Of a stretch of 64,000 nt of DNA, positions 13,537 to 48,915 are shown piece by piece (within the stretch, counting starts at the first letter, position 1; each line of letters begins with the position of its first letter). The stretch comes from Bacteroidetes bacterium GWC2_46_850 (lineage in GTDB: Bacteria > Bacteroidota > Bacteroidia > Bacteroidales > Dysgonomonadaceae), in contig MENQ01000007.1 in assembly GCA_001768325.1 (NCBI GenBank), positions 1-64,000 on the forward strand. Reading direction: 5' to 3'. A model generated the notes under the pieces. The model ran no database searches and had not been told where the DNA came from. It was given only the letters and a program-made list of their open reading frames with translations. The translations under genes and the position numbers were made by a program.

Positions 13537-13547
13537 TTTTTATTCTT

Positions 13548-14258: not shown

Positions 14259-14265
14259 ATAAAAG

Positions 14266-15393: not shown

Positions 15394-15414
15394 ATAATTC
15401 TTAATTGTAAGCTG

Positions 15415-15488
15415 CTCTTCCTCTTGGACTTGAACCAAGGACCCTCTGATTAACAGTCAGATGCTCTAACCGACTGAGCTAAGGAAGA
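15415..15488 (-). tRNA. tRNA-Asn (GTT), second copy
   Basis: 74-nt cloverleaf on the minus strand, with the same anticodon arm and D-arm as the copy at 15320. It differs in the acceptor (TCTTCCT/AGGAAGA) and T-stem (CTTGG/CCAAG), both changed on the two sides so pairing is kept. CCA is not encoded. The two genes are 21 bp apart and probably come from one transcript. Confidence 0.95.
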
Positions 15489-15577
15489 ATATTTCTCTCT
15501 GTGCTGAAAAGCGATGCAAAAGTAGTATATTTTTCCGAATAAACCAATAACAGATAAAAAAAAACAAGAAGCGATGT

Positions 15578-27796: not shown

Positions 27797-28372
27797 ATGG
27801 GCGGAGAAGCATGGAAAAGATTCATAGCGGGTGACGATAAATCTTTCGCCATCCTGTATCATGCCTATTTTTCTGAACTTTTCGCCTATGCTTTAAAACT
27901 GGGTTTCGATAAAGAAACGTGCAAAGACGCAATACAGGACCTCTTTTTCAAAATTTATGCCTCTAAAAGTAAACTCACTCACATTCGAAATATAGAGTTT
28001 TACCTGATCCGTAGCCTGAAAAACCAACTCTTCGACATGCACCGCGATGAACACAAGATACAGGAAATAGATTATCAGGATATCTTTGTAGAGAACGAAA
28101 AAAACATCGTGGAGCAAATTATCGACGAAGAAAAAGAGATTCAATTAAAACATGAAATATCTTACCTCCTGCAAAATCTACCTCCCAGACAGCGAAAGAT
28201 TGTCCATTACCGCTATCAGTTTAATCTGACCTACACAGAAATAGGTGAAATCATGCACCTTTCGGCCGATGCCGTGAAAAAAAATCTATACCGTGCACTC
28301 AAAAAGATGAAAGACACATCTACACCCAATTCACGCCAATTCTTTACATATTTATTCACAATACTTAGTTAA
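27797..28372 (+). CDS. ECF-type RNA polymerase sigma factor
   Basis: 191 aa. Sigma-70 region 2 (KSFAILYHAYFSELFAYALK, DKETCKDAIQDLFFKIYASK) and region 4 (LLQNLPPRQRKIVHYRYQFN, LTYTEIGEIMHLSADAVKKN) of the Bacteroidetes FecI-like type. The first codon ATG 27797 follows folA by 10 bp. Downstream are fecR and susC with an STN domain, the classic outer-membrane-to-nucleoid signalling trio, so this factor should switch on the SusCD operon once ligand is bound and FecR is inactivated. It should recognise a promoter near 28375-28430 or 29600-29700. Confidence 0.93.
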   Translation: MGGEAWKRFIAGDDKSFAILYHAYFSELFAYALKLGFDKETCKDAIQDLFFKIYASKSKLTHIRNIEFYLIRSLKNQLFDMHRDEHKIQEIDYQDIFVENEKNIVEQIIDEEKEIQLKHEISYLLQNLPPRQRKIVHYRYQFNLTYTEIGEIMHLSADAVKKNLYRALKKMKDTSTPNSRQFFTYLFTILS

Positions 28373-28430
28373 TTAATATTAATTTCGTCTCTTTTGACAG
28401 TTTATCCCGTCTTTTAAAAAAAGAGTGTGA

Positions 28431-29597
28431 ATGAAACTGAATTTAGATTATAAAGATTTTTTGTGTGATGATCTTTTCATTTACTGGCGGATTCATCCCA
28501 CGGCAGAACTCACCTCATTCTGGGAAAAGTATATCAGTCAGAATGAGCATCTCAGGGAATCATTTCAGTCGGCCATTGTCATTTTTGATGAAATCCAACA
28601 ACAGCATGACAGTTTCCTGCCCGATGAGGCTTCAGTAAAACGACTGTTGCAGGATAGGATCAACCTATTCAGAAAGAAAAAACTACGCATGGTGTTTACG
28701 TCATCAGCAGCTGCCATCCTGTTACTGGCGCTGATCACGGCATTATATACGACTACACGCAGAGGGAACACGTTTTCCGATAAACAGATGGCTTCTATCG
28801 GAGAGGTGATGAACCAGAATAGAGTACAACTGATCACCGGGAACCAGGTGGTTGACATGGAAAATAATGCCACGGTGCATCTTACGGAAAAAGAAAATGC
28901 CTTAATTCAGGATTCTCTTTCCCGGAAAGAGATCGAATTGAAGAAAAGTCAATCAAACAAGCTGATCGTACCGTTCGGAAAAAGATCGTCGGTCATTCTT
29001 GCCGACGGATCTGCGGTACATGTAAACTCTGGTACAGAACTTGATTTTCCTTCTGTCTTTACCGGACAGACGCGGGAAATCAGTGTAAAAGGTGAAATAT
29101 TTATCGAGGTAGCAAAGCAAAGTCACCCCTTCATTATTCACTCGCCCAAATCTCAAATAACTGTTTATGGAACATCATTTAATGTTTCATCCTACACCGA
29201 CGAAAAAAATGAATCGGTCGTGCTGGTAAATGGATCGGTACACGTAAAAAGTGATCAGGGTTCATTGATGCTAAAGCCTGGCGAGATGGCAGAAGTAAAC
29301 AATGGCACCATCCAACGGAAAGAGGTGGATGTGATGGAATATATCAGCTGGAAAAATGGCTATATGCAATTGAATAAAAATTCCTTAACAGAGGTTCTCA
29401 AAAAAATAGGAAGGTACTACAATGTAGAATTCAACTACGCGGCCACATTGAACTTACAGGATCAGACCTGTTCGGGTAAATTGTTTCTCTCCGAAAATCT
29501 TGACGACGTATTGCAATCTTTTTCAAAAATGACTTTCCTCCAATATAACGCCATCAGTGACGGAGTTGTTTATATACAAAAAAAAGAATTACAGTGA
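28431..29597 (+). CDS. FecR-type anti-sigma factor
   Basis: 388 aa. An N-terminal cytoplasmic part (about residues 1-83) is followed by one membrane segment (TSSAAAILLLALITALYTTT). The periplasmic FecR domain (SSVILADGSAVHVNSGTELD, REISVKGEIFIEVAKQSHPF, YGTSFNVSSYTDEKNESVVL) and a C-terminal DUF4974 domain (EVLKKIGRYYNVEFNYA) complete it. It holds the ECF sigma factor inactive until the STN domain of SusC signals. Its own gene follows the sigma gene by 58 bp and precedes susC by 300 bp. Confidence 0.93.
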   Translation: MKLNLDYKDFLCDDLFIYWRIHPTAELTSFWEKYISQNEHLRESFQSAIVIFDEIQQQHDSFLPDEASVKRLLQDRINLFRKKKLRMVFTSSAAAILLLALITALYTTTRRGNTFSDKQMASIGEVMNQNRVQLITGNQVVDMENNATVHLTEKENALIQDSLSRKEIELKKSQSNKLIVPFGKRSSVILADGSAVHVNSGTELDFPSVFTGQTREISVKGEIFIEVAKQSHPFIIHSPKSQITVYGTSFNVSSYTDEKNESVVLVNGSVHVKSDQGSLMLKPGEMAEVNNGTIQRKEVDVMEYISWKNGYMQLNKNSLTEVLKKIGRYYNVEFNYAATLNLQDQTCSGKLFLSENLDDVLQSFSKMTFLQYNAISDGVVYIQKKELQ

Positions 29598-29897
29598 GTT
29601 TAATCAAATATGTACCATCTAAAAACGAATTGCCTATGACTACGAAGTAAAAGAAAAGAAAAAGAAAAAGCCGGATAATGCGGCAACATTATCCGACCAG
29701 AAAAAATTAATTTTGCGCGTAAGCGAGTGCAGAGACAAGCTTGCTTGACTCTGCACAGCATGAGCAAAATCTACAAAGTGAATTTTGCGATTAAGCGAGA
29801 GCAGAGCCAAACTTGTTTGGACTATGCCGAGCGAAAGCAAAATCTACAAAGTGAATCTAATTTATTGGGTAACAAATTAAAATTCAAAAACAAAGAT
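29598..29897. repeat. Tandem ~74-nt repeat and hairpin upstream of susC
   Basis: This 300-bp region holds a hairpin CGGATAATG/CATTATCCG (29672-29680 and 29687-29695) and two tandem copies of a 74-75 nt unit at 29709-29782 and 29781-29855. Each begins AATTTTGCG and ends CAAAATCTACAAAGTGAA and carries an inner palindrome (CAAGCTTGCTTG, CCAAACTTGTTTGG). The frame is open into susC, but the ATG at 29898 fits better. A leader or promoter role for the sigma factor is possible but not shown. Confidence 0.75.
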
Positions 29898-32800
29898 ATG
29901 CAAGAAAAGCAAAACTTTAAACAAATCATCCTGAAAAAAGACAATAAGTTTTTAAAAATCATGAAAATCTATTTTTTAATAACTTTCCTCTGTGTTTTTT
30001 CAATAGCAGCAGAAAACACCTACTCCCAATCGAAATCGGTCAGTGCCGAATTGAAAGGTGTTACGTTGCGGGAAGCATTGCAAGAAATTGAACAGAACAG
30101 CGATTATCTGTTTCTGATTATGGATAATACCGAAGCCGGTTTATCGAAAAGTGTAAGTGTTACTTTTAACAACAAATCGATAGAGGAAATTATGGATTTG
30201 TTGCTGAAGAATACAAACCTTGTTTACTCCATTGTAAACCGGCAGATCACCATTTCCAGGGAACGGGTTGCTATTGAAAGTAAGAAAAAGGAAGAAGCCA
30301 CAACTGCCACCAAAGAAGTTCAACAAACACACAAAACCATCACCGGAACGGTGCGGGATGTAAATGGTGAATTCATTATCGGTGCGAATATTGTGGAAGT
30401 GGGCACAACCAATGGTACCATCACCGATGTGAACGGATATTTTTCATTGAATGTGGCAAACGAAGCCACAATACAGATCACCTACATCGGATACCTGAGC
30501 CAAACGATAAAGACTGCAGGAAGTACCAACTTCAATATCACACTCAGAGAAGATGCACAGGCGCTGGAAGAATTGGTGGTTGTTGGCTACGGAACACAGC
30601 GAAAAGAGAACCTTACCGGTGCTGTGTCTACCGTGAATGTGGAAGAAACGTTAGGCAGCAGACCCATTGCCGACGTAGGGCGGGGCTTGCAGGGAACAAC
30701 TCCGGGGCTTACGGTCATTGTTCCGAGCGGCGAAGTAGGTTCTGATCCTTTGATAAAAGTGAGGGGTCAGATCGGTTCATTTGAGGGTAAATCTCAACCC
30801 CTTATTTTATTGGATAACGTAGAAATACCAAGCATTCAGGTTGTCAATCCAAACGACATCGAGTCGATCTCTATTCTTAAAGATGCTGCCAGTGCATCCA
30901 TATATGGCGCAAAAGGCGCTTTCGGGGTTGTGTTGATCACCACAAAAAAAGGAACCAGTCAAGAGAAGGTGGATGTACAATATTCAAACAACTTTGCCTG
31001 GCAAAACATTTCTAAAAAAATGGAAATGGGGATGTTGGATGCAATGGAATATTCTATTCTTTCGATGGAAAGAGTGGGTGCTTCCGTTGCTGGTGCTTTT
31101 TGGCAAATCACACGGGAGAGTTTCGAAAAATCGAAAACATGGCACGATAATTACGGAAAAATGGGCCCTGATGATCCGATGATTTACGGACGAGACTGGT
31201 ATGTAGATGCCAATAATCGCAAACTGGGTCTCAGGACATATGATCCGTATGATTATATGGTCAGAGAGTGGACCCCCACAATGTCTCATAATTTGTCGGT
31301 AAATGGAAAAAGTGGAAAAACCACGTTTAATGTTGGATTGGGATATCTGGACCAGACAGGTATGATGAAAGCTGCCCAACATGATGATTTTACCCGATAT
31401 AACGGGACAATCAGGCTGAGCACCGAGTTAAGCAAATATGTTACATTAAGGGCAGGAGCTATCTATTCGAATCGCAATAAAAGATATCCCTATGCAACAA
31501 ACAGCACTACTGCTGACCCGTGGCTTTATCTATATCGGTGGGGACCTGTACAGCCAATGGGAACCGAAAACGGGGATCCCATCCGGAGTCCGGCTTCTGA
31601 AGTTGCACAAGCCAATACGGCAAATCAGGAAAATAAATATTTCAACGTCAACGTTGGAGCAGTGGTTAAACTAACCGACAATTGGATGGTTGATTTTGAT
31701 TTTACGAACGCCAATGAAACCTTCATCAACAACCGACTGGGAACCAGATACACAGCCCTAAACTCATGGGGAGGGGCTATTCCCTTGAACGATGCAAATG
31801 GAAATAGAATTTATGTAAACGATCAGGGTCTGTCAGTACCCTCCACTACACCAAATGCATTGCCCGGGTATCAGCTCAGCTTAACAGAATACACAGCCCA
31901 CGGAGCCAATCCTGATCATATATACAGAAATGTTTTAAATGGCGTGACAAACACACTGAATATCTTTACAACCTATAATTTGAAACTGAAGGAAGACCAT
32001 GCCTTCAAGTTTATGTTAGGAGTAAACAGGGTAGCATACGATGCTAAAAGCAACTGGTCGCAAAAGACCGATTTAGCCGATATCATCAATCCCCAATTTG
32101 GTAAAGCGGTAGGAACAATGACATCGGGTGGCGACACTTTCTGGGAAGCACAATTGGGTTACTTCGGGCGTATTAACTATGCCTTCAGAGATAAATATCT
32201 GCTGGAAGGGAATCTTCGTTACGATGGAAGTTCCAAGTTCCCCTCCAGGCTATGGTGGCGCTATTTTCCCTCAGTTTCTGCAGGCTGGCGGATTACAGAA
32301 GAACCCTGGATGGAATGGATACTTCCGGTTGTTTCGTCGATGAAAGTAAGAGGATCGTGGGGTGTTATTGGAGACCAGACGGTGCCAAGCGGACTTTATG
32401 CTCCCTCAATGACTACAACACAAACCAACTGGCTTGAACCAGGTGGATCGAAAGCTGTGGCAGTAGGCACACCTCCCGCGATCACCAGAGATATCTCATG
32501 GCAGGATTTAGAAAATGCGAACTTGGGGGTCGATCTTCGTTTCTTTAATAATTCTTTGGGTGTTGTATTTGATGTGTATCGCAGAGATACAAAGAATATG
32601 ATTGTACCCGGGGAAGGTGTTTCATACACATTTGGAGCAGGTGCTCCCAAGGGAAATTTTGGCTCATTGAGAACAGAAGGATGGGATCTGAGTATCGACT
32701 ACAATCATCGATTTGAAAACGGTTTGGGAATCAGCGCTATGGCGACTCTGTCGGATGCTATTACCACCATTTTGAAATATGGAGATACCAATAGCGTGGA

Positions 32801-33668
32801 TGGATGGTACAAAGGAAAAAGATACGGCGAAATATGGGGATACAGGACCGACAGGCTGTATCAGAAGAGTGATTTTGTTTTAGATGCCGATGGTAATACG
32901 CAGAGGATTGTACTGACAGAAAATGAAAGTAAAAAATATGCCGGAAAATCGGCCAACAAACTATCCGATGCGAACGGCAAACCGGTATATCAGGCATTCT
33001 TACAGAACAGTTCCAACTTTTTCTTCGGTCCGGGCGACGTAAAATTCATTGATCTCAACGGAGATGGAGAAATCGATGCGGGAAGCCGCTTGTTGGACGA
33101 TCATGGTGATTTGGAAATAATTGGCAATTCTACACCCCGTTTTGAGTATGGTCTGCGTTTAGGCGCCGATTGGTATGGTGTGGATGCTACAGTTTTCCTA
33201 CAGGGTGTGGGCAGCAGACAAATTTGGGGTGTGGGCTTCCTGTCAACTCCAGGCTTCCACGCTTCTGACGGAGCCATGCCACAAACCATTGCAGGCGATT
33301 TCTGGAGACCCGACAGAACAGATGCTTTTTATCCGGCACCTTACAACATGGCTGGAAGTAACTCGGGCAATAACATGCAGGTACAGTCAAAATATTTACT
33401 GGATATGTCCTATCTGAGGATTAAAAATATTACAGTCGGTTATAGTTTCCCCACCAGCGTACTAAATAAAGTAATGGTCAACCAGCTACGCATCTTTTTC
33501 TCGCTGGAAAACTTTTTCACTTTTGATAATTTAAGGGGATTACCCATTGACCCCGAAGAGATATCGGGTTATTCCATGTTTAACGATACAAATTACAACT
33601 CAGGCAGAACAGGAGTTGGAACACCTACTTTCAAAAGTGGATCGGTGGGATTACAAATTAATTTCTAA
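29898..33668 (+). CDS. SusC/RagA TonB-dependent transporter with STN signalling domain
   Basis: 1256 aa from ATG 29898. Signal segment MKIYFLITFLCVFSIAAENT after an N-terminal extension. STN (secretin/TonB short N-terminal) domain about residues 45-118 (GVTLREALQEIEQNSDYLFL), CarboxypepD_reg-like domain 147-205 (TITGTVRDVNGEFIIGANIV), plug from about 222 (LEELVVVGYGTQRKENLTGA) and a 22-strand barrel ending in FKSGSVGLQINF. It imports ligand in the outer membrane with its SusD lid and signals through STN to FecR and the ECF sigma factor. An alternative start at 29727 would encode the leader repeats and is less likely. Confidence 0.95.
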   Translation: MQEKQNFKQIILKKDNKFLKIMKIYFLITFLCVFSIAAENTYSQSKSVSAELKGVTLREALQEIEQNSDYLFLIMDNTEAGLSKSVSVTFNNKSIEEIMDLLLKNTNLVYSIVNRQITISRERVAIESKKKEEATTATKEVQQTHKTITGTVRDVNGEFIIGANIVEVGTTNGTITDVNGYFSLNVANEATIQITYIGYLSQTIKTAGSTNFNITLREDAQALEELVVVGYGTQRKENLTGAVSTVNVEETLGSRPIADVGRGLQGTTPGLTVIVPSGEVGSDPLIKVRGQIGSFEGKSQPLILLDNVEIPSIQVVNPNDIESISILKDAASASIYGAKGAFGVVLITTKKGTSQEKVDVQYSNNFAWQNISKKMEMGMLDAMEYSILSMERVGASVAGAFWQITRESFEKSKTWHDNYGKMGPDDPMIYGRDWYVDANNRKLGLRTYDPYDYMVREWTPTMSHNLSVNGKSGKTTFNVGLGYLDQTGMMKAAQHDDFTRYNGTIRLSTELSKYVTLRAGAIYSNRNKRYPYATNSTTADPWLYLYRWGPVQPMGTENGDPIRSPASEVAQANTANQENKYFNVNVGAVVKLTDNWMVDFDFTNANETFINNRLGTRYTALNSWGGAIPLNDANGNRIYVNDQGLSVPSTTPNALPGYQLSLTEYTAHGANPDHIYRNVLNGVTNTLNIFTTYNLKLKEDHAFKFMLGVNRVAYDAKSNWSQKTDLADIINPQFGKAVGTMTSGGDTFWEAQLGYFGRINYAFRDKYLLEGNLRYDGSSKFPSRLWWRYFPSVSAGWRITEEPWMEWILPVVSSMKVRGSWGVIGDQTVPSGLYAPSMTTTQTNWLEPGGSKAVAVGTPPAITRDISWQDLENANLGVDLRFFNNSLGVVFDVYRRDTKNMIVPGEGVSYTFGAGAPKGNFGSLRTEGWDLSIDYNHRFENGLGISAMATLSDAITTILKYGDTNSVDGWYKGKRYGEIWGYRTDRLYQKSDFVLDADGNTQRIVLTENESKKYAGKSANKLSDANGKPVYQAFLQNSSNFFFGPGDVKFIDLNGDGEIDAGSRLLDDHGDLEIIGNSTPRFEYGLRLGADWYGVDATVFLQGVGSRQIWGVGFLSTPGFHASDGAMPQTIAGDFWRPDRTDAFYPAPYNMAGSNSGNNMQVQSKYLLDMSYLRIKNITVGYSFPTSVLNKVMVNQLRIFFSLENFFTFDNLRGLPIDPEEISGYSMFNDTNYNSGRTGVGTPTFKSGSVGLQINF

Positions 33669-33679
33669 ACGAAGAAAAC

Positions 33680-35515
33680 ATGAAAAAGAACATAATAATT
33701 GGCAATCTGTTACTTATTGTTTTTTTAATAAGTAGTTGTTCCGATGTACTCGACAGACCCGAACTGAACAATATGAACGATGATACCTATTGGAGAAATG
33801 AGACCGATCTGCGCCTCTTTACCAATGGATTTTACATCAATTATTTTGTCGGTTATAACAACACCTGGGGAGTTGCCTATGCTCCCTTGAGAGGATATTA
33901 CTTCAGCGATGATTTTTCCAATTCGAATGTACAGTCTAATTTTGAGTCCAGTGCACCATCGAGCAGGGGTAGCACGTCTGAAACACCTGACATGCTGATA
34001 CAGTATGCCGGTCCAAATTGGAACTTTGCATGGGTACGAAAATCAAACCTGCTCATCAACAGGATTGAAAATGTAGCTAAACCACAGATCAGCAGTGAAG
34101 CTTATAATCATTGGATGGGTGTTGCCCGCTTTTTCAAGGGTTATGAATACCACAGGCTGGTTAGTGTTTTTGGCAATGTGCCATATTATGAAGCGTTGTT
34201 TGAATCGAATGACCTGGATATGATGTATCAGGACAGAACACCACGGGGCGAGGTGATGGACCATGTGTATGATGATCTTATGTATGCTTTTCAGAATGTG
34301 CGATTAGACGATGGCAATAATGTCCTTAACAGATATATTGTTGCCGGATTCATATCCAGATTCATGCTGTTTGAAGGAACCTGGCAAAAATACCATCTTA
34401 ACGATCAGGTAAGAGCAAAAAAATACCTCGAACTGGCGATAACTGCGGGCGACTTTGTGATTAACAGTGGAAAATACAATGTCACATCGAACTTCAGAAG
34501 CCTGTTCGGTTCTCAGGACCTGAAAGGCAACCCTGAAATGCTGATGTACCGTCATTACGATGCGGCACAAAGTGTGACTCATCATGTGGCCTCCTATTCG
34601 AACGGATATGAAAGTCAGATCCCATCAGCGAACCTGTCACTGGCCAAATCATTTCTTTGCGTAGATGGGCAGCCGTACAAACTGTCAACCCTTGAGAATT
34701 CCGATGTACTGGATATCAAAAACATGATTAAAACCCGTGATCCGCGATTCGAGGCAACGTTTCAGGATGTTCCAAAAGTTCAGTCTGCCACACTACTATA
34801 TGCAAGCAAGTTTATAGACAGAACAGGACCCACTTTTTGGAATTCAGGCAATATACCGCCCATGTACGCAAGTATGACCAATACAAATGATGCCCCTGTG
34901 ATGCGGTATTCGGAAGTGTTATTAAACTGGATTGAAGCCAAAGCAGAGCTTGCCACCATGGGAGGTGCCGCAGTGACACAGACCGACATCAACAATTCCA
35001 TCAATAAAATCAGAAACAGGCCTTTGGAGACGGAAGCCATTGCAAAGGGTGTGCAGAAAACAGCTCCGATGAGCCTGGCTGCATTACCTGATGATCCCGA
35101 CCGAGATCCTGACGTGTCTCCGTTGTTATGGGAGATCAGACGCGAAAGAAGGATGGAGTTTGTTTTCGAATATTCACGACTGCTGGATATCAAACGTTGG
35201 AAGAAAATTAATTACATGAGCGCTACGCAACACCCGGATAATTTACTGGGTTTGTGGATCAATGTAAAGGAAGAACTTCCTTCTTTGCTGGTAAAAGAAA
35301 AAGTAGGCCTTTTGAAAGTGAAAAAAGCCGATGGAACCGTTGTCAGCTACAATGGAACAAATGGTGATGAAATGGTCGGTTTTTACATGATCGAAAAAGG
35401 AGCAGACCGACAAGCTTTCGATGACAAGGTTTACCTGGCACCTGTGGGAAAAGCCCAGATCGACCAATACAAGGATAAGGGGTATACTTTGACCCAAACC
35501 CCCGGTTGGAATTAA
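33680..35515 (+). CDS. SusD/RagB nutrient-binding lipoprotein
   Basis: 611 aa. Lipoprotein signal ending LLIVFLISSC; the mature part starts SDVLDRPELNNMNDDTYW. SusD TPR-type helices and C-terminal LLWEIRRERRMEFVFEYSRL with LDIKRWKKINY are diagnostic. It is the surface lid on SusC (gene 12 bp upstream) that captures glycan or peptide ligand. The downstream terminator at 35540 closes the sigma-regulated susCD part. The ligand cannot be read from sequence; context points to an amino-sugar polymer. Confidence 0.95.
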   Translation: MKKNIIIGNLLLIVFLISSCSDVLDRPELNNMNDDTYWRNETDLRLFTNGFYINYFVGYNNTWGVAYAPLRGYYFSDDFSNSNVQSNFESSAPSSRGSTSETPDMLIQYAGPNWNFAWVRKSNLLINRIENVAKPQISSEAYNHWMGVARFFKGYEYHRLVSVFGNVPYYEALFESNDLDMMYQDRTPRGEVMDHVYDDLMYAFQNVRLDDGNNVLNRYIVAGFISRFMLFEGTWQKYHLNDQVRAKKYLELAITAGDFVINSGKYNVTSNFRSLFGSQDLKGNPEMLMYRHYDAAQSVTHHVASYSNGYESQIPSANLSLAKSFLCVDGQPYKLSTLENSDVLDIKNMIKTRDPRFEATFQDVPKVQSATLLYASKFIDRTGPTFWNSGNIPPMYASMTNTNDAPVMRYSEVLLNWIEAKAELATMGGAAVTQTDINNSINKIRNRPLETEAIAKGVQKTAPMSLAALPDDPDRDPDVSPLLWEIRRERRMEFVFEYSRLLDIKRWKKINYMSATQHPDNLLGLWINVKEELPSLLVKEKVGLLKVKKADGTVVSYNGTNGDEMVGFYMIEKGADRQAFDDKVYLAPVGKAQIDQYKDKGYTLTQTPGWN

Positions 35516-35648: not shown

Positions 35649-38168
35649 ATGGAAAAAATAAAAATATCCCTGCTGTTTTTTTTGATTTTCTCTGCAGCCT
35701 ATACCCAGTCTTCCTGGATACGGGTCAATCAGGTGGGTTACCTGGAGGACGATGTGAAAGTCGCCGTCTGGATCAGCAAGGAAAAGAAAACCATCCGTGA
35801 ATTTCAGATAATTGACCCCGATACCCGGAAGATATTGTTCACAGGTTTGGAATCGGATATCCGACAAACCGGAAGACAACCTGCATTCGAATCATCGGCA
35901 CGGCTTAATTTTACTGCCCTCAAAATACCGGGGAGCTATATATTGAAAGCAGACGATACGGAATCTGTGCCTTTCAGCATCGGAAACGATATATATGCAG
36001 GAGCAGCAGATATTCCGTTACAGTATATGCGTCAGCAACGGTGCGGATACAATCCTTTCCTGAAAGATTCATGCCACGTGCACGACGCCATTTCGGTGGG
36101 AGATCCCGATGACAAACGCAACGGATTATATTTCAACACCACAGGCGGATGGCACGATGCATCGGACTATCTGCAATACGTCACCACCTCTGCCAATGCA
36201 GTCTATCAGATGCTTTTCGCATACAGCCGCTATCCCGGATCATTCGGAGATGCGTACGACACAAATGGCAATGAAGGGGCAAACGGGATTCCCGATATTC
36301 TGGATGAAGCCAAATGGGGGTTGGACTGGCTGGTGAAGATGAATCCCGACCCCGACACCTATTTCAATCAGCTGGCCGATGACAGGGATCACATCGGCTT
36401 TACACTACCCAACGAACAGAAGGTAGACTACGGATGGGGGTCGGGAAAAGAACGTCCCCTCTATTTTGTCAGCCCCAAACCCCAGGGGTTGTTCAAATAT
36501 AAAAACAGAAGTACAGGCATGGCTTCCACCTTAGGAAAATATGCTTCTTCATTTTCCCTGGGTGCCAGACTATTGGCTGCTTACTATCCCGAATTTGCCG
36601 GTATACTGGCGCAAAAAGCGAAAGAGGCTTATCGCAAAGGGGTAGATAATCCCGGCGTTTCACAAACAGCACCCGGGGGCGCACCCTACTTTTACGAAGA
36701 GGACAACTGGGCGGATGATATGCAGTTGGCCGCCATGGAAATGCATCAGGCTTCGGGGAAAAAGGAATATCTGACACAAGCCGTCAACTATGGCAGGATG
36801 GAACCCGTGACACCCTGGATGGGGGCCGATTCGGCACGTCACTACCAATGGTATCCATTTGTAAACCTCGCCAATTATCACCTCTCGGCGCAAAACAGCG
36901 ACCTACGCGCAAGAGATGAGTTTGTACGAAATATGAGAACAGGATTGCAGCGGGTGAAAGAACGGGCTGAGGGTGACGCTTTTCTGAATGGAATACCATT
37001 TATATGGTGTTCAAACAACCTCACAGTAGGCTTTATCACACAATGCAGGTTGTATCACGAAATTACCGGAGACGATGCATTTCTAGAAATCGAGACCGCC
37101 ATGCGCGACTGGCTCCTGGGATGTAATCCCTGGGGTACCTCCATGATCGTGGGATACCCGCAACAGGGCGATACGCCGGTCGACCCGCATTCGGCATTTA
37201 CCCATCTTCACCAAATGCCGGTTACTGGCGGCATAGTGGACGGTCCCATTTACAACTCAATATTTAGCAGCCTGATCGGGATTTATCTGGCCAATGCGGA
37301 TGAATATGCCGATCTTCAGTCGGATTACGTGGTGTACCACGATGACTATGCCGACTATTCCACCAATGAACCCACGATGGACGGAACAGCCTCACTGACT
37401 TATTACCTGGGGTATCTGGGCGCACAGGCAAAACAAACAGGTACAAGGATAAACCAACCAACCGTAAGAACTAAACAACCGGTAAGAGATGCAGGCGGCA
37501 TCGTGCGTGGTGATGCATCCACAAAACAGCTCTCCCTTGTTTTTACAGGTCATGAATACGCAGACGGAGCCAATGTGATCCGTGAAGTACTGAAAAAGCA
37601 CCACATCAAAGGGACTTTCTTCCTAACAGGCGATTTTTACAGGAAATACCCTGCTCTTGTACGCAATCTTCAAAAGGAGGGCCATTATATGGGACCACAT
37701 TCCGACAAACATCTCTTGTATGCCGATTGGCAAAATCGCGATTCAACGCTGATCGCCCGCCCCGAATTTGAGAAAGATCTCGACAACAACTACCGGGCAA
37801 TGGAAAAGGGCGGATTAGAGATTGAGTCACCCCGCTATCTGATGCCACCCTACGAATGGTACAACAGAGAGATCAGTGACTGGGCAAAAGCCATGGATGT
37901 GCAGATAGTGAATTTTACGCCGGGCACCACCTCCAACGCCGACTATACGACTCCCGGCATGAAAAACTACCTATCGTCTGAAACAATATATCACAATATT
38001 TTGCAGTACGAAGAAAAGAACAGCCTGAGTGGTTTTATGCTCCTGATCCATATCGGTACCGATCCCACACGAAGCGACAAATTTTATGACTGCCTCGATG
38101 AATTGATCGGTGAATTGAAAAACAGGGAATATAAATTCATAAGGATAGACGGATTGTTGAAAGATTGA
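35649..38168 (+). CDS. GH9 glycosidase fused to CE4-like polysaccharide deacetylase
   Basis: 839 aa secreted enzyme. Signal peptide MEKIKISLLFFLIFSAAYTQ, a CelD-type N-terminal Ig domain (SWIRVNQVGYLEDDVKVAVW, to about residue 105), a GH9 catalytic domain (115-600) with WHDASDY at 168-174 and catalytic Glu at about 574 in TNEPTMDG, then a CE4 NodB-like domain (about 625-835) with HSDKH at 684-688 and YLMPPYEWYN near 730. The usual TFDDG is replaced by FTGHEYADG. GH9 members include cellulases and exo-glucosaminidases; the deacetylase partner favours a GlcNAc-containing substrate. Lies downstream of susCD, after its terminator. Confidence 0.9.
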   Translation: MEKIKISLLFFLIFSAAYTQSSWIRVNQVGYLEDDVKVAVWISKEKKTIREFQIIDPDTRKILFTGLESDIRQTGRQPAFESSARLNFTALKIPGSYILKADDTESVPFSIGNDIYAGAADIPLQYMRQQRCGYNPFLKDSCHVHDAISVGDPDDKRNGLYFNTTGGWHDASDYLQYVTTSANAVYQMLFAYSRYPGSFGDAYDTNGNEGANGIPDILDEAKWGLDWLVKMNPDPDTYFNQLADDRDHIGFTLPNEQKVDYGWGSGKERPLYFVSPKPQGLFKYKNRSTGMASTLGKYASSFSLGARLLAAYYPEFAGILAQKAKEAYRKGVDNPGVSQTAPGGAPYFYEEDNWADDMQLAAMEMHQASGKKEYLTQAVNYGRMEPVTPWMGADSARHYQWYPFVNLANYHLSAQNSDLRARDEFVRNMRTGLQRVKERAEGDAFLNGIPFIWCSNNLTVGFITQCRLYHEITGDDAFLEIETAMRDWLLGCNPWGTSMIVGYPQQGDTPVDPHSAFTHLHQMPVTGGIVDGPIYNSIFSSLIGIYLANADEYADLQSDYVVYHDDYADYSTNEPTMDGTASLTYYLGYLGAQAKQTGTRINQPTVRTKQPVRDAGGIVRGDASTKQLSLVFTGHEYADGANVIREVLKKHHIKGTFFLTGDFYRKYPALVRNLQKEGHYMGPHSDKHLLYADWQNRDSTLIARPEFEKDLDNNYRAMEKGGLEIESPRYLMPPYEWYNREISDWAKAMDVQIVNFTPGTTSNADYTTPGMKNYLSSETIYHNILQYEEKNSLSGFMLLIHIGTDPTRSDKFYDCLDELIGELKNREYKFIRIDGLLKD

Positions 38169-38233: not shown

Positions 38234-41200
38234 ATGAAGAAATCCGTTTTTATCGCTTGCATGCTTGCCATTGCCTTCGCTTCATCTTCGCAGAATCTTC
38301 AAACGGATTCACTGAAATACAAACTGGGCAGATCACTCACAAATATTTACCGCGAAACAATGCTGCGGCCGGGAAGGGTGACGGTGGACAGCATCGCGGC
38401 AAACGACCGGAAAAAGCGTATCGCATTGCATACCAGCCTCTCGCTTTCCTATCTCCCCATGCGGGAACATACCGTTCAGCTCATCTACGACAGCGTACGG
38501 TTTCATCTGCCAGCAAAACAAAAAAAATACCAGATCGCCGTCATCACCGACGACCAGGAGATCAGCCTTCTGGTGCCCAATTTCCACAGGGACAAACAAC
38601 GGGACAAAAACAGGATCATTGCCCATAAAATAAAAACGCCACTGGTGACAGACATCTCTGCCCCAGCCGGCACTTTCAGCAAGGGGTTGCAAAATAACCA
38701 CATCGCCCTCTGGCAGAGCCACGGATGGTATTACGAACAGAAGCTGGGACGGTGGGAGTGGCAACGGGCACGCATCTTCCAGACAGTAGAGGACCTCTAC
38801 ACCCAGAGCTACGTGCTACCCTTCTTGGTGCCGATGCTGGAAAATGCAGGCGCCAACGTGCTGCTTCCCCGGGAAAGGGACTACAACAAAACGGAATTGA
38901 TCATCGACAACGACGACCGCATAAGAGAAGGCGGATTCAACTATTCAGACAAATATGATAATTCCCAATATAGTGAAACAAACGGAAAAGAAACATGGAG
39001 CAACACCGGTATAGCCGGTTTTGCCAATCCCCGGGATCGATATCTGGAGGGTGAAAATCCTTTCCGGATGGGCACAGCCAGGCAGGTACGGACGACAAAT
39101 CGCGGGAAAGAGAGTATCGCAGCCTGGCATCCCAATATTCCCGCAAAAGGGAAATATGGTGTTTATGTCTCCTATCAGACCGTAAAAAACAGCAGCGACG
39201 ATGCACTGTACAGCGTCCATCACGCCGGTGGAAAAACCGATTTCCGTGTGAACCAGCAGATGGGGGGCGGCACCTGGATCTTCCTGGGGTATTTCGACTT
39301 TGAAAAGGGTACAACCCACCAGATCATCCTCTCCAACAAAAGCAGCCGCAACGGAAAAATCGTGACCGCCGACGCAGTAAAGATCGGCGGCGGAATGGGC
39401 AACATTGCCCGGATGCCCCATCCGGGAGGCTTTGAAGCGGAGAACACCAAAAGTTCCGATAACCCGACAAAAAAAAAGACCCTTGTTTCACAGATACGTT
39501 ACGCACCGGAAATCAGCGGCTACCCCCGATACGCCGAGGGAGCGCGCTACTGGATGCAGTGGGCCGGGGTGCCCGACACGATATACAACCGCACCGAAGG
39601 AAAGAACGACTACACCGACGACTATGCATCCCGGGGTGCCTGGGTAAACTGGCTGGCGGGAGGATCCCCGGTGCTGCCCAAAAAAGAGGGGCTCCACATC
39701 CCGGTGGACCTGGCCTTTGCATTCCACACCGATGCGGGCACCTTCTGGGGTGATACCATTGTGGGAACACTCGGCATCTACATGACACACCACAACAACG
39801 AGCGGTTCGAAAATGGACGTTCGCGGTGGGCTTCCCGTGATCTCACCGAGCTGGTGATGGAAGAGATCGTGAACGATATCCGTCGCGACTTTGAACCGGA
39901 CTGGACCCGGCGGCATCTCTGGAACCGCTCCTATGCTGAAGCACGCATGCCCAACGTGCCGACCATGCTGCTGGAGCTGCTCTCTCATCAGAACTTTGCC
40001 GATATGCGCTACGGCCTCGATCCCACTTTCCGGTTTACCGTCAGCCGCTCCATTTACAAGGGTATGTTGAAATTTCTCGCAACCCAGTACAATCGTCCGT
40101 ATGTGGTACAACCGCTGCCGGTGAAGGAGTTCTCCGCCCGTTTCAGCAGTGAAACGCAAGTGAACCTATCCTGGCAACCCACACCCGATCCAGCGGAGCC
40201 CACCGCCCTGCCCGACCGGTACGTGATCTATACCCGCCTGAACGGAGGAGGTTTCGACAATGGGGTCGTGGTCAATGACCCCAACCTGGCATTACCCATA
40301 ATGAAAGACAGCATCTACAGTTTTCGGGTGATCGCTGTCAATGAGGGGGGACGCAGCTTCCCCTCCGAAATACTCTCCATCTGCCGCAGATCGGACCAAA
40401 AAGGAGAAGTACTGATTGTAAACGGATTTACCCGTGTCTCCGCACCGTTCAGCTTCACCACTTCCGAAGACAGCATAGCCGGCTTCTCAGGAAGCGTGGA
40501 CAATGGCGTGCCTTATCTGGCCGATCACCATTTTATCGGGCAGATGCACGAATTCCGGCGCATCATCCCCTGGATGGACGACGATGCCGCGGGCTTCGGC
40601 GACAGCCATGCGAACTACGAAACCACGACCATCGCCGGCAACACGTTCGATTACCCCTTTGTACACGGGCAGGCTTTTGCGGCTGCAGGATATTCTTTTG
40701 TTTCCGCGGCCGCAGATGCGGTGGAAAGCGGTATCGTGAGCCTGACAGATTACATAACGGTGGACTGGATCCTGGGCAAGCAGCGGGAATGGAGCATGGC
40801 CCGGGGAGCAAAACCGCCGCAATACAAAACTTTTTCCAAAAAGAAACAGCAGGCAATCACCGACTTCTGCAATGGCGGTGGAAATATCATCGTGAGCGGC
40901 GCCTTCGTCGGCAGCGACCTGTGGGACAACCCACGTGCTACAAAAGAAGACCGCGCGTGGGCACAACAAACCCTCAAATACAAATGGAGAAACAACAACG
41001 GTGCTGTCACAGGACAGATTAAAGCCGTACCCTCTCCGTTTCCCGCCATACAGGGGACATACCTTTACTACAATGAGCTGAACAGTGAAAGTTATGTGGT
41101 GGAAAATCCCGACGCACTGGAGCCAGCCGATGAAAATGGATTCACCATCTTCCGCTACACGGAGAACAACCTGAGTGCAGGGTTACTCTACAAGGGTGAA

Positions 41201-41299
41201 AAATACAGCACCTGTATCCTTGGTTTCCCAATAGAAGCAGTAAAAGAACAGGAAAAACGAAATGAATTGATCAAAAACATAATGAAAATATTAGAATAA
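38234..41299 (+). CDS. Amidase_3-like protein with golvesin-like insert and Fn3
   Basis: 1021 aa from ATG 38234 (MKKSVFIACMLAIAFASSSQ is a signal peptide). A split N-acetylmuramoyl-L-alanine amidase-like catalytic module: QSHGWYYEQ near residue 163, later LAFAFHTDAGTFWG near 496 and LLELLSHQNFADMRYGLDP near 576. Between these lies a golvesin C-terminal-like beta domain (about 258-391). A fibronectin-III-like stretch (LPDRYVIYTRLNGGGFDNG) and a C-terminal flavodoxin-like/glutamine-amidotransferase-like part follow. Relatives are often annotated xanthan lyase, but the metal ligands argue for peptide-glycan amidase. Its position before the MurNAc operon fits peptidoglycan breakdown. Confidence 0.75.
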   Translation: MKKSVFIACMLAIAFASSSQNLQTDSLKYKLGRSLTNIYRETMLRPGRVTVDSIAANDRKKRIALHTSLSLSYLPMREHTVQLIYDSVRFHLPAKQKKYQIAVITDDQEISLLVPNFHRDKQRDKNRIIAHKIKTPLVTDISAPAGTFSKGLQNNHIALWQSHGWYYEQKLGRWEWQRARIFQTVEDLYTQSYVLPFLVPMLENAGANVLLPRERDYNKTELIIDNDDRIREGGFNYSDKYDNSQYSETNGKETWSNTGIAGFANPRDRYLEGENPFRMGTARQVRTTNRGKESIAAWHPNIPAKGKYGVYVSYQTVKNSSDDALYSVHHAGGKTDFRVNQQMGGGTWIFLGYFDFEKGTTHQIILSNKSSRNGKIVTADAVKIGGGMGNIARMPHPGGFEAENTKSSDNPTKKKTLVSQIRYAPEISGYPRYAEGARYWMQWAGVPDTIYNRTEGKNDYTDDYASRGAWVNWLAGGSPVLPKKEGLHIPVDLAFAFHTDAGTFWGDTIVGTLGIYMTHHNNERFENGRSRWASRDLTELVMEEIVNDIRRDFEPDWTRRHLWNRSYAEARMPNVPTMLLELLSHQNFADMRYGLDPTFRFTVSRSIYKGMLKFLATQYNRPYVVQPLPVKEFSARFSSETQVNLSWQPTPDPAEPTALPDRYVIYTRLNGGGFDNGVVVNDPNLALPIMKDSIYSFRVIAVNEGGRSFPSEILSICRRSDQKGEVLIVNGFTRVSAPFSFTTSEDSIAGFSGSVDNGVPYLADHHFIGQMHEFRRIIPWMDDDAAGFGDSHANYETTTIAGNTFDYPFVHGQAFAAAGYSFVSAAADAVESGIVSLTDYITVDWILGKQREWSMARGAKPPQYKTFSKKKQQAITDFCNGGGNIIVSGAFVGSDLWDNPRATKEDRAWAQQTLKYKWRNNNGAVTGQIKAVPSPFPAIQGTYLYYNELNSESYVVENPDALEPADENGFTIFRYTENNLSAGLLYKGEKYSTCILGFPIEAVKEQEKRNELIKNIMKILE

Positions 41300-41398: not shown

Positions 41399-42853
41399 AT
41401 GAAAAAAATAGACGCTTTTATTCTCTTCACAGAGCCCGAACAGGCAAAAAAAACAGTCGATGAGCTTCGCCAGTCGGAGTCGGTCGACAAGATATGGCTC
41501 CTTACACCCGAAGAAAGCAAAGAGACGATCAAAGGGTGTAAAAATATCCTCATCGACAGCCTGTACAGTAGTGCCACAATCCGAAAGATCGCACAGAAAT
41601 CGAAAGCAGACTATACGCTCATCTACCAGAAATCGACGGTACTCAAACCGGGCTATTTTGCCCTTGAACGGATGATCCGCATTGCAGAAGACACGGCGGC
41701 AGGTATGGTCTATGCCGATTATTATGCCATCGTGGGCGATGAAAAAAAGAACCACCCGGTGATCGACTACCAGGAGGGCAGCCTACGCGACGACTTCAAC
41801 TTTGGCTCGTTGCTGTGCTACAACACAACAGCACTGAAGAAGGCGGCAAAACGGATGAAAAACGAAACCTATCAATTTGCCGGACTGTACGACCTGCGGC
41901 TGAAAGTCTCTCAAAAGCATCCGCTGGTACATATCAGCGAGTACCTCTACACCGAGATTGAAGCGGATACCCGGGTATCGGGACAGAAAATATTCGATTA
42001 TGTGGATCCCAAAAACAGGCAGCTTCAGCTGGAGATGGAGCAGGCCTGCACCCAACATCTGAAAGATGTGGGTGCGTGGCTGGAGCCCAAATTCAAAACC
42101 ATTGAATTCGAGAAGGGCAGCTTTGCTGTGGAGGCATCGGTGATCATACCGGTACGCAACCGCATCAAAACCATCCGCGATGCCATCGCCTCGGTGCTCA
42201 AACAAGAAACAAGCTTTCCTTTTAACCTGATCGTCATCGACAACCACTCTACCGACGGCACCACCGAGGCCATTGACGGATTTAAAAGCGACGGGCGACT
42301 CATACATCTTGTCCCGGAGAGAGACGACCTGGGTATCGGCGGCTGCTGGAACATGGGCGTACACCACCCTCAATGCGGAAAGTTTGCCGTGCAGCTTGAC
42401 AGCGACGACGTCTACAGCGGCGTGGATACGTTGCAGCAGATCGTGAACGCCTTCTACGAGCAACAGTGCGCCATGGTGGTGGGAACCTACCAGATGACCA
42501 ACTTCAACATGGAGATGATCCCTCCCGGCATCATCGATCACCGGGAGTGGACACCCGACAACGGTAGAAACAATGCCCTGCGCATCAACGGCCTGGGTGC
42601 ACCGCGTGCTTTCTACACACCCGTACTGCGGGAGATCAAGGTGCCCAACACCAGCTACGGCGAGGATTATGCACTGGGACTGAATATTTCCCGCCACTAC
42701 CAGATCGGTCGCATCTACGATGTACTCTACCTCTGCCGCCGCTGGGAGGACAACTCAGATGCTTCACTCGACATCGTGAAAATGAACGGACATAACCTCT
42801 ATAAAGACAGGATCAGAACATGGGAAATCCAGGCGAGACAGAAATTAAAATAA
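41399..42853 (+). CDS. GT2-family glycosyltransferase
   Basis: 484 aa. An N-terminal nucleotide-sugar-like half (MKKIDAFILFTEPEQAKKTV, to about residue 230) is followed by a GT-A domain: ASVIIPVRNRIKTIRDAIAS, VIDNHSTDGTTEAIDGF and the metal-binding LDSDDVYSGVD. No signal or membrane segment. It probably transfers a sugar in the cytoplasm, perhaps to an envelope glycan. The start codon lies beside the heptamer repeats. The SpoIID/LytB gene overlaps its end by 34 bp, so the two are likely coupled and this is the first gene of the amino-sugar recycling run. Confidence 0.88.
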   Translation: MKKIDAFILFTEPEQAKKTVDELRQSESVDKIWLLTPEESKETIKGCKNILIDSLYSSATIRKIAQKSKADYTLIYQKSTVLKPGYFALERMIRIAEDTAAGMVYADYYAIVGDEKKNHPVIDYQEGSLRDDFNFGSLLCYNTTALKKAAKRMKNETYQFAGLYDLRLKVSQKHPLVHISEYLYTEIEADTRVSGQKIFDYVDPKNRQLQLEMEQACTQHLKDVGAWLEPKFKTIEFEKGSFAVEASVIIPVRNRIKTIRDAIASVLKQETSFPFNLIVIDNHSTDGTTEAIDGFKSDGRLIHLVPERDDLGIGGCWNMGVHHPQCGKFAVQLDSDDVYSGVDTLQQIVNAFYEQQCAMVVGTYQMTNFNMEMIPPGIIDHREWTPDNGRNNALRINGLGAPRAFYTPVLREIKVPNTSYGEDYALGLNISRHYQIGRIYDVLYLCRRWEDNSDASLDIVKMNGHNLYKDRIRTWEIQARQKLK

Positions 42854-44163
42854 GAGAACCTCTCATTCAGGTGGGAATCCTCCAGGAGCAACCTCAAATA
42901 AGCTTCACCCTGCTCACCGACTACAGACTGGGAGGAAAACCGATCCTCCGGGGCGACTATTTGGTGAAAATGGCCGACGGGATGATCCGCTTCAACGGAG
43001 AAACCTACACCGAAATAACCTTTGAATCGAATCAGTTTCACGATGAGGCATTCGAGTTGAAGGAGGTGGTGATTGGTGTGGGCTTTCACTGGGAACGCAA
43101 GGAAAACCAACGTTTCCAGGGCAGTTTGAAGTTTATCTGCGGTAATAAGGGAATCACCGCCATTAACATCGTCTCCCTGGAGGATTACCTCAAGAGCGTC
43201 ATTTCATCAGAGATGAGTGCCACCAGTTCCGAAGAGCTGCTGAAGACACACGCCGTGATCTCCCGAAGCTGGCTGCTGGCGCAGATGCAAAAAAACAAAG
43301 AGATCAGGAACGACTATCATACCTCCTTTGTATCGGCCGGTGAGATCGTTCGCTGGTACGACCGCGAAGACCACGCCCTGTTCGATGTCTGTGCCGATGA
43401 CCATTGTCAGCGCTACCAGGGCATCACGCGACAAACCACCGCATTGGTGAACAAGGCGATTGATGAAACCCGTGGACAGGTGGTCGCCTACGGTGATACC
43501 CTCTGCGACGCCCGTTTCTCAAAGTGCTGCGGCGGCGTGATGGAGACATTCGAAAATGTGTGGGAGCCCATCCCGCATCCATACCTCGTGGGAAAACCCG
43601 ATTTCAAGGAGAACACTCCCCTGCCCGATCTGACTGTGGAGGAGCATGCCCGGGCATGGATTCACTCCGCTCCGCAGGCCTTCTGCAACACCACAGATGC
43701 AGACGTGCTCAGGCAGGTGCTGAACGACTACGACCAGGAGACAGCCGACTTCTATCGTTGGAAGGTGGTGTACTCCCAAAGCGAACTGAGTACCCTCATC
43801 AAGGAACGTTCCGGCATCGATTACGGAGAGATCATCGCCCTGGAACCTCTCGAACGGGGCAGCTCGGGACGGATCATCCGGCTCAGGATCATCGGCAGCC
43901 AGCGGGTGATGACCATCGGCAAGGAGCTGGAGATCCGCCGTACCCTCTCCCGCTCTCACCTCTATAGCTCCGCCTTCGTGGTGGACGCGGAAAAAGAGAA
44001 CAACGAGGGGATCCCGCAGCAGTTCACACTCACTGGCGCCGGCTGGGGCCACGGCGTGGGTCTCTGTCAGATAGGGGCAGCCATGATGGCGGAGAAGGGA
44101 TATCGCCACGATCAGATATTGACGCACTATTTCCCCCAGACAAAATTGGTCCACTATTATTGA
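42820..44163 (+). CDS. SpoIID/LytB-domain protein
   Basis: 447 aa. Family landmarks: SVISSEMSATSSEELLKTHA with VISRSWLLAQ, then CDARFSKCCGGVMETFENVW and GWGHGVGLCQIGAAMMAEKG near the C-terminus. SpoIID is a lytic transglycosylase acting on denuded (stem-less) glycan strands, and LytB is an amidase enhancer; this would produce amino-sugar fragments from peptidoglycan. No clear signal peptide, so export or cytoplasmic action is uncertain. The 34-bp overlap with the GT2 gene is unusual. AmpG follows by 39 bp. Confidence 0.88.
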   Translation: MGNPGETEIKIREPLIQVGILQEQPQISFTLLTDYRLGGKPILRGDYLVKMADGMIRFNGETYTEITFESNQFHDEAFELKEVVIGVGFHWERKENQRFQGSLKFICGNKGITAINIVSLEDYLKSVISSEMSATSSEELLKTHAVISRSWLLAQMQKNKEIRNDYHTSFVSAGEIVRWYDREDHALFDVCADDHCQRYQGITRQTTALVNKAIDETRGQVVAYGDTLCDARFSKCCGGVMETFENVWEPIPHPYLVGKPDFKENTPLPDLTVEEHARAWIHSAPQAFCNTTDADVLRQVLNDYDQETADFYRWKVVYSQSELSTLIKERSGIDYGEIIALEPLERGSSGRIIRLRIIGSQRVMTIGKELEIRRTLSRSHLYSSAFVVDAEKENNEGIPQQFTLTGAGWGHGVGLCQIGAAMMAEKGYRHDQILTHYFPQTKLVHYY

Positions 44164-44202: not shown

Positions 44203-45498
44203 ATGAACAAACAAAAGAAAGTCACATTCCGCAACCCCTGGGCATGGATACCCACCCTCTATTTTGCGGAAGGACTGCCCTATGTGGCGGTGATGACCGT
44301 CTCGGTGATCATGTACAAACGTTTTGGCCTCTCCAACACAGAAATAGCCCTCTACACAAGCTGGTTATACCTTCCCTGGGTGATCAAACCCTTCTGGAGC
44401 CCGTTTGTGGATATCCTGAAAACCAAACGGTGGTGGATCGTCTCGATGCAATTGCTGATTGGCGCCGGCCTGGCAGGTGTGGCCTTTACCCTGCCCACAC
44501 CCTTCTACCTGCAGGCATCGCTGGCATTCTTCTGGTTGATGGCTTTCAGCTCGGCTACACACGACATCGCCGCAGACGGCTTTTACATGCTGGCACTCGA
44601 CGATTCACAGCAGTCCTTTTTCGTGGGAATACGCAGCACGTTCTACCGCCTGGCCTCAATCACCGGACAGGGACTATTGATCATCCTGGCCGGGTTCCTG
44701 GAAAAATCGACCGGCAGAATCCCCTTTGCCTGGAGCATCACCTTCTTTATTCTGGCAGGACTCTTCCTGCTCTTTTTCGTATACCATCGCTTTGTACTGC
44801 CCTACCCGCCCGCCGATACCGGCAAGACAGCCTTTACGCCCAGGGAGGTGATGACTGAATTTGGCAATACCTTCAAATCTTTTTTCACGAAAAAGGGAAT
44901 CGGACTGGCCATTGCCTTTATGCTGCTCTACCGGCTTGCCGAAGCCATGCTCATCAAGCTGGCTTCTCCATTTTTACTGGACAGCCGCGATGTGGGAGGA
45001 CTGGGACTGAGCACCTCCGAGGTGGGCATCACCTACGGCACGGTGGGCGTGATCTCGCTCACCCTGGGAGGCATCATCGGCGGTATCGTGGCATCAAGGC
45101 AAGGGCTGAAACAGTGGCTCTGGCCCATGGCCGTGGCCATCACCCTGCCCAACGCGGCCTACCTGCTGCTGGCAATTTATCAGCCCGAAAACTTTATCTG
45201 GGTGAATGTGGCAGTAGCCATTGAACAGTTTGGATATGGATTTGGCTTTACAGCATACATGCTCTACCTGATTTACTTCTCACAGGGGGAACACAAGACA
45301 GCGCACTACTCCATCTGCACTGGGTTCATGGCACTGGGGATGATGCTGCCGGGTATGGCTGCCGGATGGATACAGGAACAGCTGGGCTATGAAAGTTTTT
45401 TTAGATTTATCATGCTGGCTATTGTCCCCACCCTCCTGCTAATACCGTTCATGAAAGTGGATCCCGACTTTGGCAGATCGAAAAAGACAAACGGATAA
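44203..45498 (+). CDS. ampG: AmpG-like MFS muropeptide permease
   Basis: 431 aa, about 12 membrane segments. FAEGLPYVAVMTVSVIMYKR and TEIALYTSWLYLPWVIKPFW are AmpG-type; ATHDIAADGFYMLALDDSQQ follows in the central loop. AmpG imports anhydro-muropeptides or GlcNAc-anhMurNAc into the cytoplasm in exchange for protons. It lies between the SpoIID/LytB and NamZ-like genes, so transport of recycled cell-wall fragments is well supported. Some MFS sugar permeases look similar, but the neighbours favour AmpG. Confidence 0.9.
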   Translation: MNKQKKVTFRNPWAWIPTLYFAEGLPYVAVMTVSVIMYKRFGLSNTEIALYTSWLYLPWVIKPFWSPFVDILKTKRWWIVSMQLLIGAGLAGVAFTLPTPFYLQASLAFFWLMAFSSATHDIAADGFYMLALDDSQQSFFVGIRSTFYRLASITGQGLLIILAGFLEKSTGRIPFAWSITFFILAGLFLLFFVYHRFVLPYPPADTGKTAFTPREVMTEFGNTFKSFFTKKGIGLAIAFMLLYRLAEAMLIKLASPFLLDSRDVGGLGLSTSEVGITYGTVGVISLTLGGIIGGIVASRQGLKQWLWPMAVAITLPNAAYLLLAIYQPENFIWVNVAVAIEQFGYGFGFTAYMLYLIYFSQGEHKTAHYSICTGFMALGMMLPGMAAGWIQEQLGYESFFRFIMLAIVPTLLLIPFMKVDPDFGRSKKTNG

Positions 45499-45524
45499 AA
45501 TAAACAATTACAAAACACAAGCTT

Positions 45525-48027: not shown

Positions 48028-48031
48028 AAAA

Positions 48032-48889: not shown

Positions 48890-48915
48890 GATATTGAAAC
48901 ATTGAAATCCAACAT

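Follow-up and report, generated by a model that had tools for sequence, protein, structure and literature searches.

The locus described here raises the question of what a glycoside hydrolase and a polysaccharide deacetylase do in a single polypeptide when the deacetylase half departs from its family at the active site, and in particular whether that half is still an enzyme. The gene lies at 35649-38168 of the window, which is the whole 64,000 nucleotide stretch analysed, and this and all other window features given below are on the forward (+) strand. The host's nearest relatives, judged by matches to the deacetylase half and by the tree, belong to Proteiniphilum (Bacteroidales).

The gene is a single intact ORF with an ATG start that predicts an 839 aa protein with a signal-like N-terminus, as read from the translation. 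Pfam finds, in order, a CelD_N Ig-like domain (PF02927, 6e-18; residues 20-105, 35706-35963), a GH9 catalytic domain (Glyco_hydro_9, PF00759, 5e-67; residues 116-587, 35994-37409) and Polysacc_deac_1 (PF01522, 2e-14; residues 641-753), which bears out the claim of an earlier note on this DNA that GH9 and CE4 share one chain. A linker (37410-37493), of which residues 598-608 are below pLDDT 50 in the predicted model, separates the GH9 domain from a domain of NodB fold at residues 616-839 (37494-38165), assigned from PF01522, the model and structure alignment. The NodB/CE4-fold half with its altered motif 1 is referred to here as CE4x and its GH9 partner as GH9x. The full-length model has a pTM of 0.70 and thus does not fix the mutual placement of the two.

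Relatives of CE4x were drawn from a public scan with one genome per species, in which the best 80 of 138 confirmed stretches were taken as loci. Conservation was counted over 94 aligned sequences, the window protein and 93 relatives; alignment A1 holds the window protein and 72 of the 93 after near-copies were thinned out. Set against canonical CE4, taken as NodB1.1 as its motifs and their roles are set out in the available text of PMC10967932, CE4x has the NodB fold and motifs 2, 4 and 5, and lacks the tandem Asp of motif 1 and the Arg of motif 3. The earlier note had read HSDKH as kept and FTGHEYADG as standing where TFDDG is expected, and both motifs are confirmed, at residues 684-688 (37698-37712) and 632-640 (37542-37568, placed by conservation and profile alignment), respectively. 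In the profile alignment to solved CE4 structures, T633 falls on the first (base) Asp and G634 on the second (metal) Asp, which is Asn in PdaA. Neither position is Asp or Glu in any of the 94 sequences, the window included, so that both motif-1 Asp are gone; position 633 is Thr in 86, Ser in 7 and Ala in 1, and position 634 is Gly in 76 and Ala in 18. 

The note had placed the alteration in motif 1, and it is wider than that. In the motif 3 variant PPYEWYN (residues 733-739, 37845-37865), the Pro pair is kept (Pro733 in 94/94, Pro734 in 93/94), the preceding position 732, Arg in canonical CE4, is Met in 64 sequences, Leu in 18, Ile in 11 and Val in 1, and a new Glu736 is present in all 94. The stretch after HxxxH is also longer than in CE4, and Tyr691 and Trp694 are invariant there. 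The remainder of the site is strictly conserved. H684, H688, D710, E736, N739 and D765, the last being the motif 4 Asp (37941-37943), are each found in 94/94, and S685 of motif 2 (H[ST]xxH) in 93/94. Motif 5, LIH (38043-38051), retains His801 in 93/93, one row stopping short of the site, and L799 of the LxH pattern in 91/93. Around motif 1, an acid occurs at 635 or 636 in 91/94, D/E639 in 93/94 and T/S633 in 93/94. A domain in plain decay would not be expected to keep its two metal His, Asp-His relay and Pro-Pro pair so strictly.

A shifted register, in which D639-G640 would supply motif 1 with its metal Asp and its Gly, is ruled out: motif 1 runs ungapped into the next strand in the profile alignment, and the strand in the model spans 627-634. 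A frameshift or sequencing error is ruled out by the agreement of all 94 sequences. The exact peptide FTGHEYAD was one of six search patterns and is absent from 57 of the 80 scanned loci, so the altered motif is not merely a product of search selection.

By tree labels, members of the CE4x clade occur in Bacteroidota, Ignavibacteriota, Acidobacteriota, Fidelibacterota and Aminicenantota, many of them being metagenome bins for which single labels may be wrong. Other CE4 genes in the same genomes carry TFDDG. Twelve DDG-bearing paralogues are split from CE4x by a 100/100 branch, in a tree whose outgroup was these 12 distant rows picked by the DDG motif and whose bootstrap had not settled. This supports the option, raised earlier, of a distinct CE4 subfamily. 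On the CE4x profile, CE4x sequences score 293-360 bits and other CE4 genes of the same eight genomes at most 50 bits, while PF01522 is matched in 73/73 members of A1. With its change shared by relatives in five phyla, CE4x looks like a separate branch that is still functional rather than a broken copy. The structure prediction that the note had suggested yields a confident NodB-fold model from AlphaFold2 for residues 600-839 (pLDDT 94.7, pTM 0.91). The best curated labels lie far under their NCBIfam cut-offs (PdaB, 75.5 bits against 237; PdaA, 62.7 bits against 298), and no relative with a measured activity was found among the profile and structure matches or in the literature searched.

The nearest structures include proteins described as inactive. 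The top Foldseek match of the CE4x model is a BA3943 structure titled CE4 pseudoenzyme, and in VIA-align the best Z is 25.4, to BA0150 (4m1b; 197 residues, rmsd 1.7), followed by 24.1 to 1w17, about 24 for BA3943, PdaA and Bc1960, and 21.6 to 2j13, differences below 1 being ties. According to the available text of PMC10967932, 4M1B is catalytically inert and may descend from a MurNAc deacetylase. BA0330 and BA0331 are reported as devoid of activity yet able to bind peptidoglycan (PMC4505593, in part). Together with the loss from all 94 sequences of the motif-1 Asp pair and of the Arg in motif 3, these likenesses would fit CE4x as a non-catalytic NodB binder of amino-sugar chains, a pseudoenzyme turned lectin that brings GH9x or partner proteins to peptidoglycan. 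We consider this somewhat unlikely. Members from all five phyla keep HxxxH, Asp765 and His801 without exception, whereas in BA0150 motif 2 is altered and no metal is bound (PMC6115787, in part), and EcCDA retains neither His (PMC10967932); CE4x also persists alone where GH9 has been lost (see below). With both metal His and the Asp765-His801 relay present in every sequence that extends to them, and with the domain outliving GH9, CE4x is more likely to be catalytic, with a specialised binding domain as the alternative.

For GH9x, 3 of 67 rows were dropped as short and 64 aligned; alignment A2 holds the window and 38 others after thinning, with L020 omitted. D170 and D173 of GGWHDASDY and E574 of NEPTMDG, which we take to be the catalytic residues, are present in 64/64. 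The solved structures closest to GH9x are endoglucanases, with an E value of 4e-58 to the endoglucanase-side 3x17 against 2e-16 to the 3h7l/6gdt/5dgq group, presumably the exo-glucosaminidases of GH9. Where four aligned endoglucanase chains have PHHR, GH9x has [PVTI]H[SLTAIM][ASPV], in which His514 is retained in 64/64 and position 516, Arg in those chains, is Ala, Ser, Pro or Val in 64/64. Of 11 further GH9 genes in genomes with GH9x, only 2 show the PHH pattern, and PHHR is thus no universal GH9 signature. GH9x also has invariant blocks peculiar to it, such as DDRDH. Scored with the GH9x profile, the GH9x copies of 12 genomes reach 859-938 bits, whereas none of the 11 other GH9 genes there exceeds 157, which marks GH9x as a GH9 branch of its own.

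The two halves are closely linked. In the 80 loci, GH9x and CE4x are fused in 33, are same-strand neighbours in either order in 10 (including L021, whose split GH9 holds unidentified bases and was left out of the scar count below) and lie on opposite strands within ~1.3 kb in 6; at least 49/80 thus have them fused or within ~1.3 kb. Of the 31 loci scored as lacking GH9x, 15 are flanked on one side by less than 5 kb of sequence, and in two (L069 and L072) the edge of a GH9x gene lies at the contig end. Of 295 genomes from the window's order, GH9x was found in 18 and CE4x in 19, with 15 carrying both, 3 GH9x only and 4 CE4x only, at thresholds of E <= 1e-100 for the GH9 half and E <= 1e-40 for the deacetylase half; the four with CE4x only were rechecked with the GH9x profile.

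GH9 has been excised in frame, leaving a scar and a whole CE4x, in L024 (8524-10708) and L040 (9917-10720). In Proteiniphilum acetatigenes (L024), a 316 aa protein in the same operon consists of a signal-like start, the start of CelD_N, a short remnant and an intact CE4x, the first residues of the CelD_N remnant being identical to the fusion over 19 residues. A second NamZ-like gene lies just upstream of this GH9-less gene. The shuffle test for the scar gave 0/2000 in both L024 and L040 and 1/2000 in L032, which probably carries one too; L035 (16/2000) is a weaker case, and L038 fails (202/2000). Of 14 other copies tested, L054 gave 6/2000 through an alignment elsewhere in the Ig-like domain, and four (L061, L031, L055 and L086) were not clean tests, the stretch taken for them being the wrong one or extending into CE4x.

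That CE4x is a mere helper of GH9x is weakened by the scars in L024, L040 and probably L032. Because CE4x survives by itself after the loss of GH9, the two halves do not have to work strictly one after the other, as in the deacetylation and then exo-cleavage that the earlier note had suggested. CE4x also has other in-frame partners, namely a beta-lactamase-fold domain (L063, 8816-10753), a PQQ-type propeller (L090, 9875-12181) and, in L030 and L031 (L031, 9872-13690), the amidase-like protein encoded next to the fusion in the window.

In the window, the fusion gene is part of a one-strand run in the order sigma-FecR-SusC-SusD-fusion-amidase-like-GT2-SpoIID-AmpG-NamZ-MurT-MurK-MurQ. Upstream are genes for an ECF-type sigma factor-like protein, recognised from the translation, and a FecR anti-sigma factor, recognised by Pfam (27797-29597), and for a SusC-like and SusD-like outer-membrane pair, also by Pfam (29727-35515). 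Downstream, a 1020 aa protein with Golvesin_C (38237-41299) has a weak Amidase_3 match that is under the cut-off (E 0.037), and is followed by GT2 glycosyltransferase and SpoIID/LytB genes (41399-44163), the latter above cut-off. Genes for an MFS transporter, labelled AmpG by its best curated match (186 bits, under the cut-off of 350), and for a NamZ with both Pfam domains above cut-off occupy 44203-46787, and MurT-, MurK- and MurQ-like genes 46855-49734; MurQ scores 377 bits in NCBIfam (cut-off 168), and MurT and MurK are assigned from gene order and weak matches. The fusion gene is thus predicted to head a salvage operon of the NamZ-AmpG-MurTKQ type, for peptidoglycan and MurNAc, a context of which the earlier note made no use.

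Some details of the region are recorded here. The listed start of the 1020 aa gene, TTG at 38165, overlaps the fusion gene, and the ATG at 38237, with a signal-like start, is likelier. The nearest NCBIfam label of 46855-48027 is NagX, a glucosamine N-acetyltransferase (144 bits, cut-off 480); by its position and by analogy with work on Tannerella (PMC5388701, in part), this gene is more likely MurT, the MurNAc transporter. A MurB match above cut-off argues against the host being auxotrophic for MurNAc in the way that Tannerella is. Genes at 57889-63082 read, from translation, like the large and beta subunits of nitrate reductase.

The context of other loci was compared with 40 control stretches of 20 kb from seven genomes of the window's order, the family loci being shorter on average. 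A peptidoglycan or amino-sugar gene is found in 33/80 family loci and 2/40 controls (Fisher p 1.4e-5), though this broad test is partly circular, its S13, SIS, NagA, second MurT and GH3/beta-lactamase queries having been chosen from family loci; the same query over L042-L100 only, a set lying outside Dysgonomonadaceae/Tannerella, gives 15/59 (p 0.013). When the query is confined to the window's own salvage genes (amidase-like, SpoIID, AmpG, NamZ, MurT, MurK and MurQ), 8/21 loci in L021-L041, 5/59 in L042-L100 (L048, L057, L080, L093 and L096) and 1/40 controls have one in the stored flank. An S13 carboxypeptidase gene is present in 8 loci, AmpG and SpoIID in L080 and L096, and MurQ in L093. 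A peptidoglycan substrate can fairly be inferred for the window's lineage, and only weakly beyond it.

Some loci bear on other substrates or roles. In L048, MurQ, MurK and NamZ genes lie near GH9x and CE4x together with a GH3+beta-lactamase fusion (12719-15673) that looks like a protein of the NagZ-AmiE type. This gene adjoins GH9x, so GH9x is not simply replacing NagZ, and the idea that it compensates for an absent NagZ is further weakened by 7 GH3 matches in the genome of the window. In L060, NagA, SIS and ROK genes are beside GH9x and CE4x, and NagA with a ROK kinase would fit the use of GlcNAc, with CE4x deacetylating chito-oligomers and GH9x acting as an exo-glucosaminidase, an activity that the GH9 family does include. 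Such a chitin scheme is nevertheless very improbable, as the window genes scanned with Pfam and NCBIfam include no chitinase family and include peptidoglycan genes instead, and the match of GH9x to the 3h7l group is far weaker than to the endoglucanases. Most of the distant loci have no salvage-operon neighbour, and this, with endoglucanases as the nearest solved relatives, would be expected if GH9x were an ordinary beta-glucanase that is incidental in the operon. The wide gap on the GH9x profile and the missing PHHR make this quite improbable, although the PHHR argument is tempered by the rarity of PHH in other GH9 genes.

Taken together, the domains, their conservation, the clade, the linkage and the gene order lead us to propose, tentatively and at somewhat below an even chance, that the fusion serves periplasmic processing of de-peptided peptidoglycan sugar strands, with CE4x a hydrolase whose base and metal site has been rebuilt. 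In the proposed order of steps, SusC/SusD would bring peptidoglycan fragments in, and the 1020 aa amidase-like protein might strip the peptides. SpoIID/LytB and NamZ would cleave at MurNAc; SpoIID proteins are reported to digest de-peptided strands (PMC6635528, in part). GH9x would hydrolyse a beta-1,4 bond of the sugar strand by the inverting GH9 mechanism, and CE4x would deacylate an amino sugar in that strand or in fragments of it. AmpG and MurT would then import the sugars, which MurK and MurQ would pass to metabolism. CE4x would use the retained His-His metal site, Asp765-His801 acid relay and Pro-Pro loop of CE4, while the base and third metal ligand would be shifted away from motif 1, with Glu736 as the first candidate and the acids of the 635-639 loop as the second.

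A more specific version, in which an active CE4x uses Glu736 or the loop acids in place of Asp with Thr/Ser633 at the base position, perhaps on MurNAc or a non-acetate acyl group, alongside a peptidoglycan-specialised GH9x in a salvage module of five phyla, is unlikely as a whole. Profile-based annotation would name such proteins cellulase and polysaccharide deacetylase. A conserved NodB clade that lacks both motif-1 Asp but retains the other site residues offers a natural test of which residues CE4 enzymes require. In Bacteroidota, among them Tannerella forsythia with its dependence on MurNAc, it also supplies a specific candidate for additional steps in peptidoglycan salvage.

The GH9-CE4x fusion is not named in the titles and abstract openings of the literature searched, most subscription journals lying outside its coverage; deacetylase domains are described on long xylanases (PMC4928363, in part). 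GH9 enzymes with CelD_N (3x17, J30, BoGH9A and CelD) resemble the window protein in domain order and in the catalytic Asp pair and Glu, and the aligned chains differ in carrying PHHR where GH9x has its own variant and its own blocks.

The closest known operon is the AmpG-MurTKQ operon of Tannerella forsythia, which shares the order of a gene named xanthan lyase, GT, LytB, AmpG, YbbC (presumably NamZ) and MurTKQ. The window has one GT rather than two and has SusCD and the fusion placed in front. The Tannerella unit comprises nine genes, Tanf_08345-08385 (xanthan lyase, two GTs, LytB, AmpG, YbbC and MurTKQ; PMC5388701), the 1020 aa window protein sitting where that operon has the xanthan lyase, and its AmpG-MurTKQ operon was found by RT-PCR to be a single transcript (PMC5388701, PMC7670621; both in part). 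In T. forsythia itself (L039), the fusion lies apart from the operon, at ~76.6-79.1 kb of JUET01000082, with NamZ at 100.1 kb of contig C81, which we take to be the same contig.

Among NodB proteins, the PdaA/PdaB branch of CE4/NodB1.1 (1w17, 2j13 and 4m1b) shares with CE4x the fold, HxxxH, the Pro pair, the motif 4 Asp and the motif 5 His; CE4x differs in the absence of Asp from motif 1 and of the motif 3 Arg, in the added Glu736 and in the longer stretch after motif 2. The BA3943 pseudoenzyme (7bkf, 6hpa and 6hm9) is nearest by Foldseek rank, at ~20% identity. It too is without TFDDG in motif 1, and in the available text of PMC6115787 a departure in motif 2 is named for BA0150 only. PuuE allantoinase (3cl6) has the NodB fold, lacks both motif-1 Asp and keeps the motif 4 Asp and motif 5 His, and it is an enzyme even so (PMC10967932, in part). 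Its second metal His is replaced by Trp, whereas H688 is present in 94/94 CE4x sequences, and CE4x retains both motif-2 His, unlike BA0150 and PuuE.
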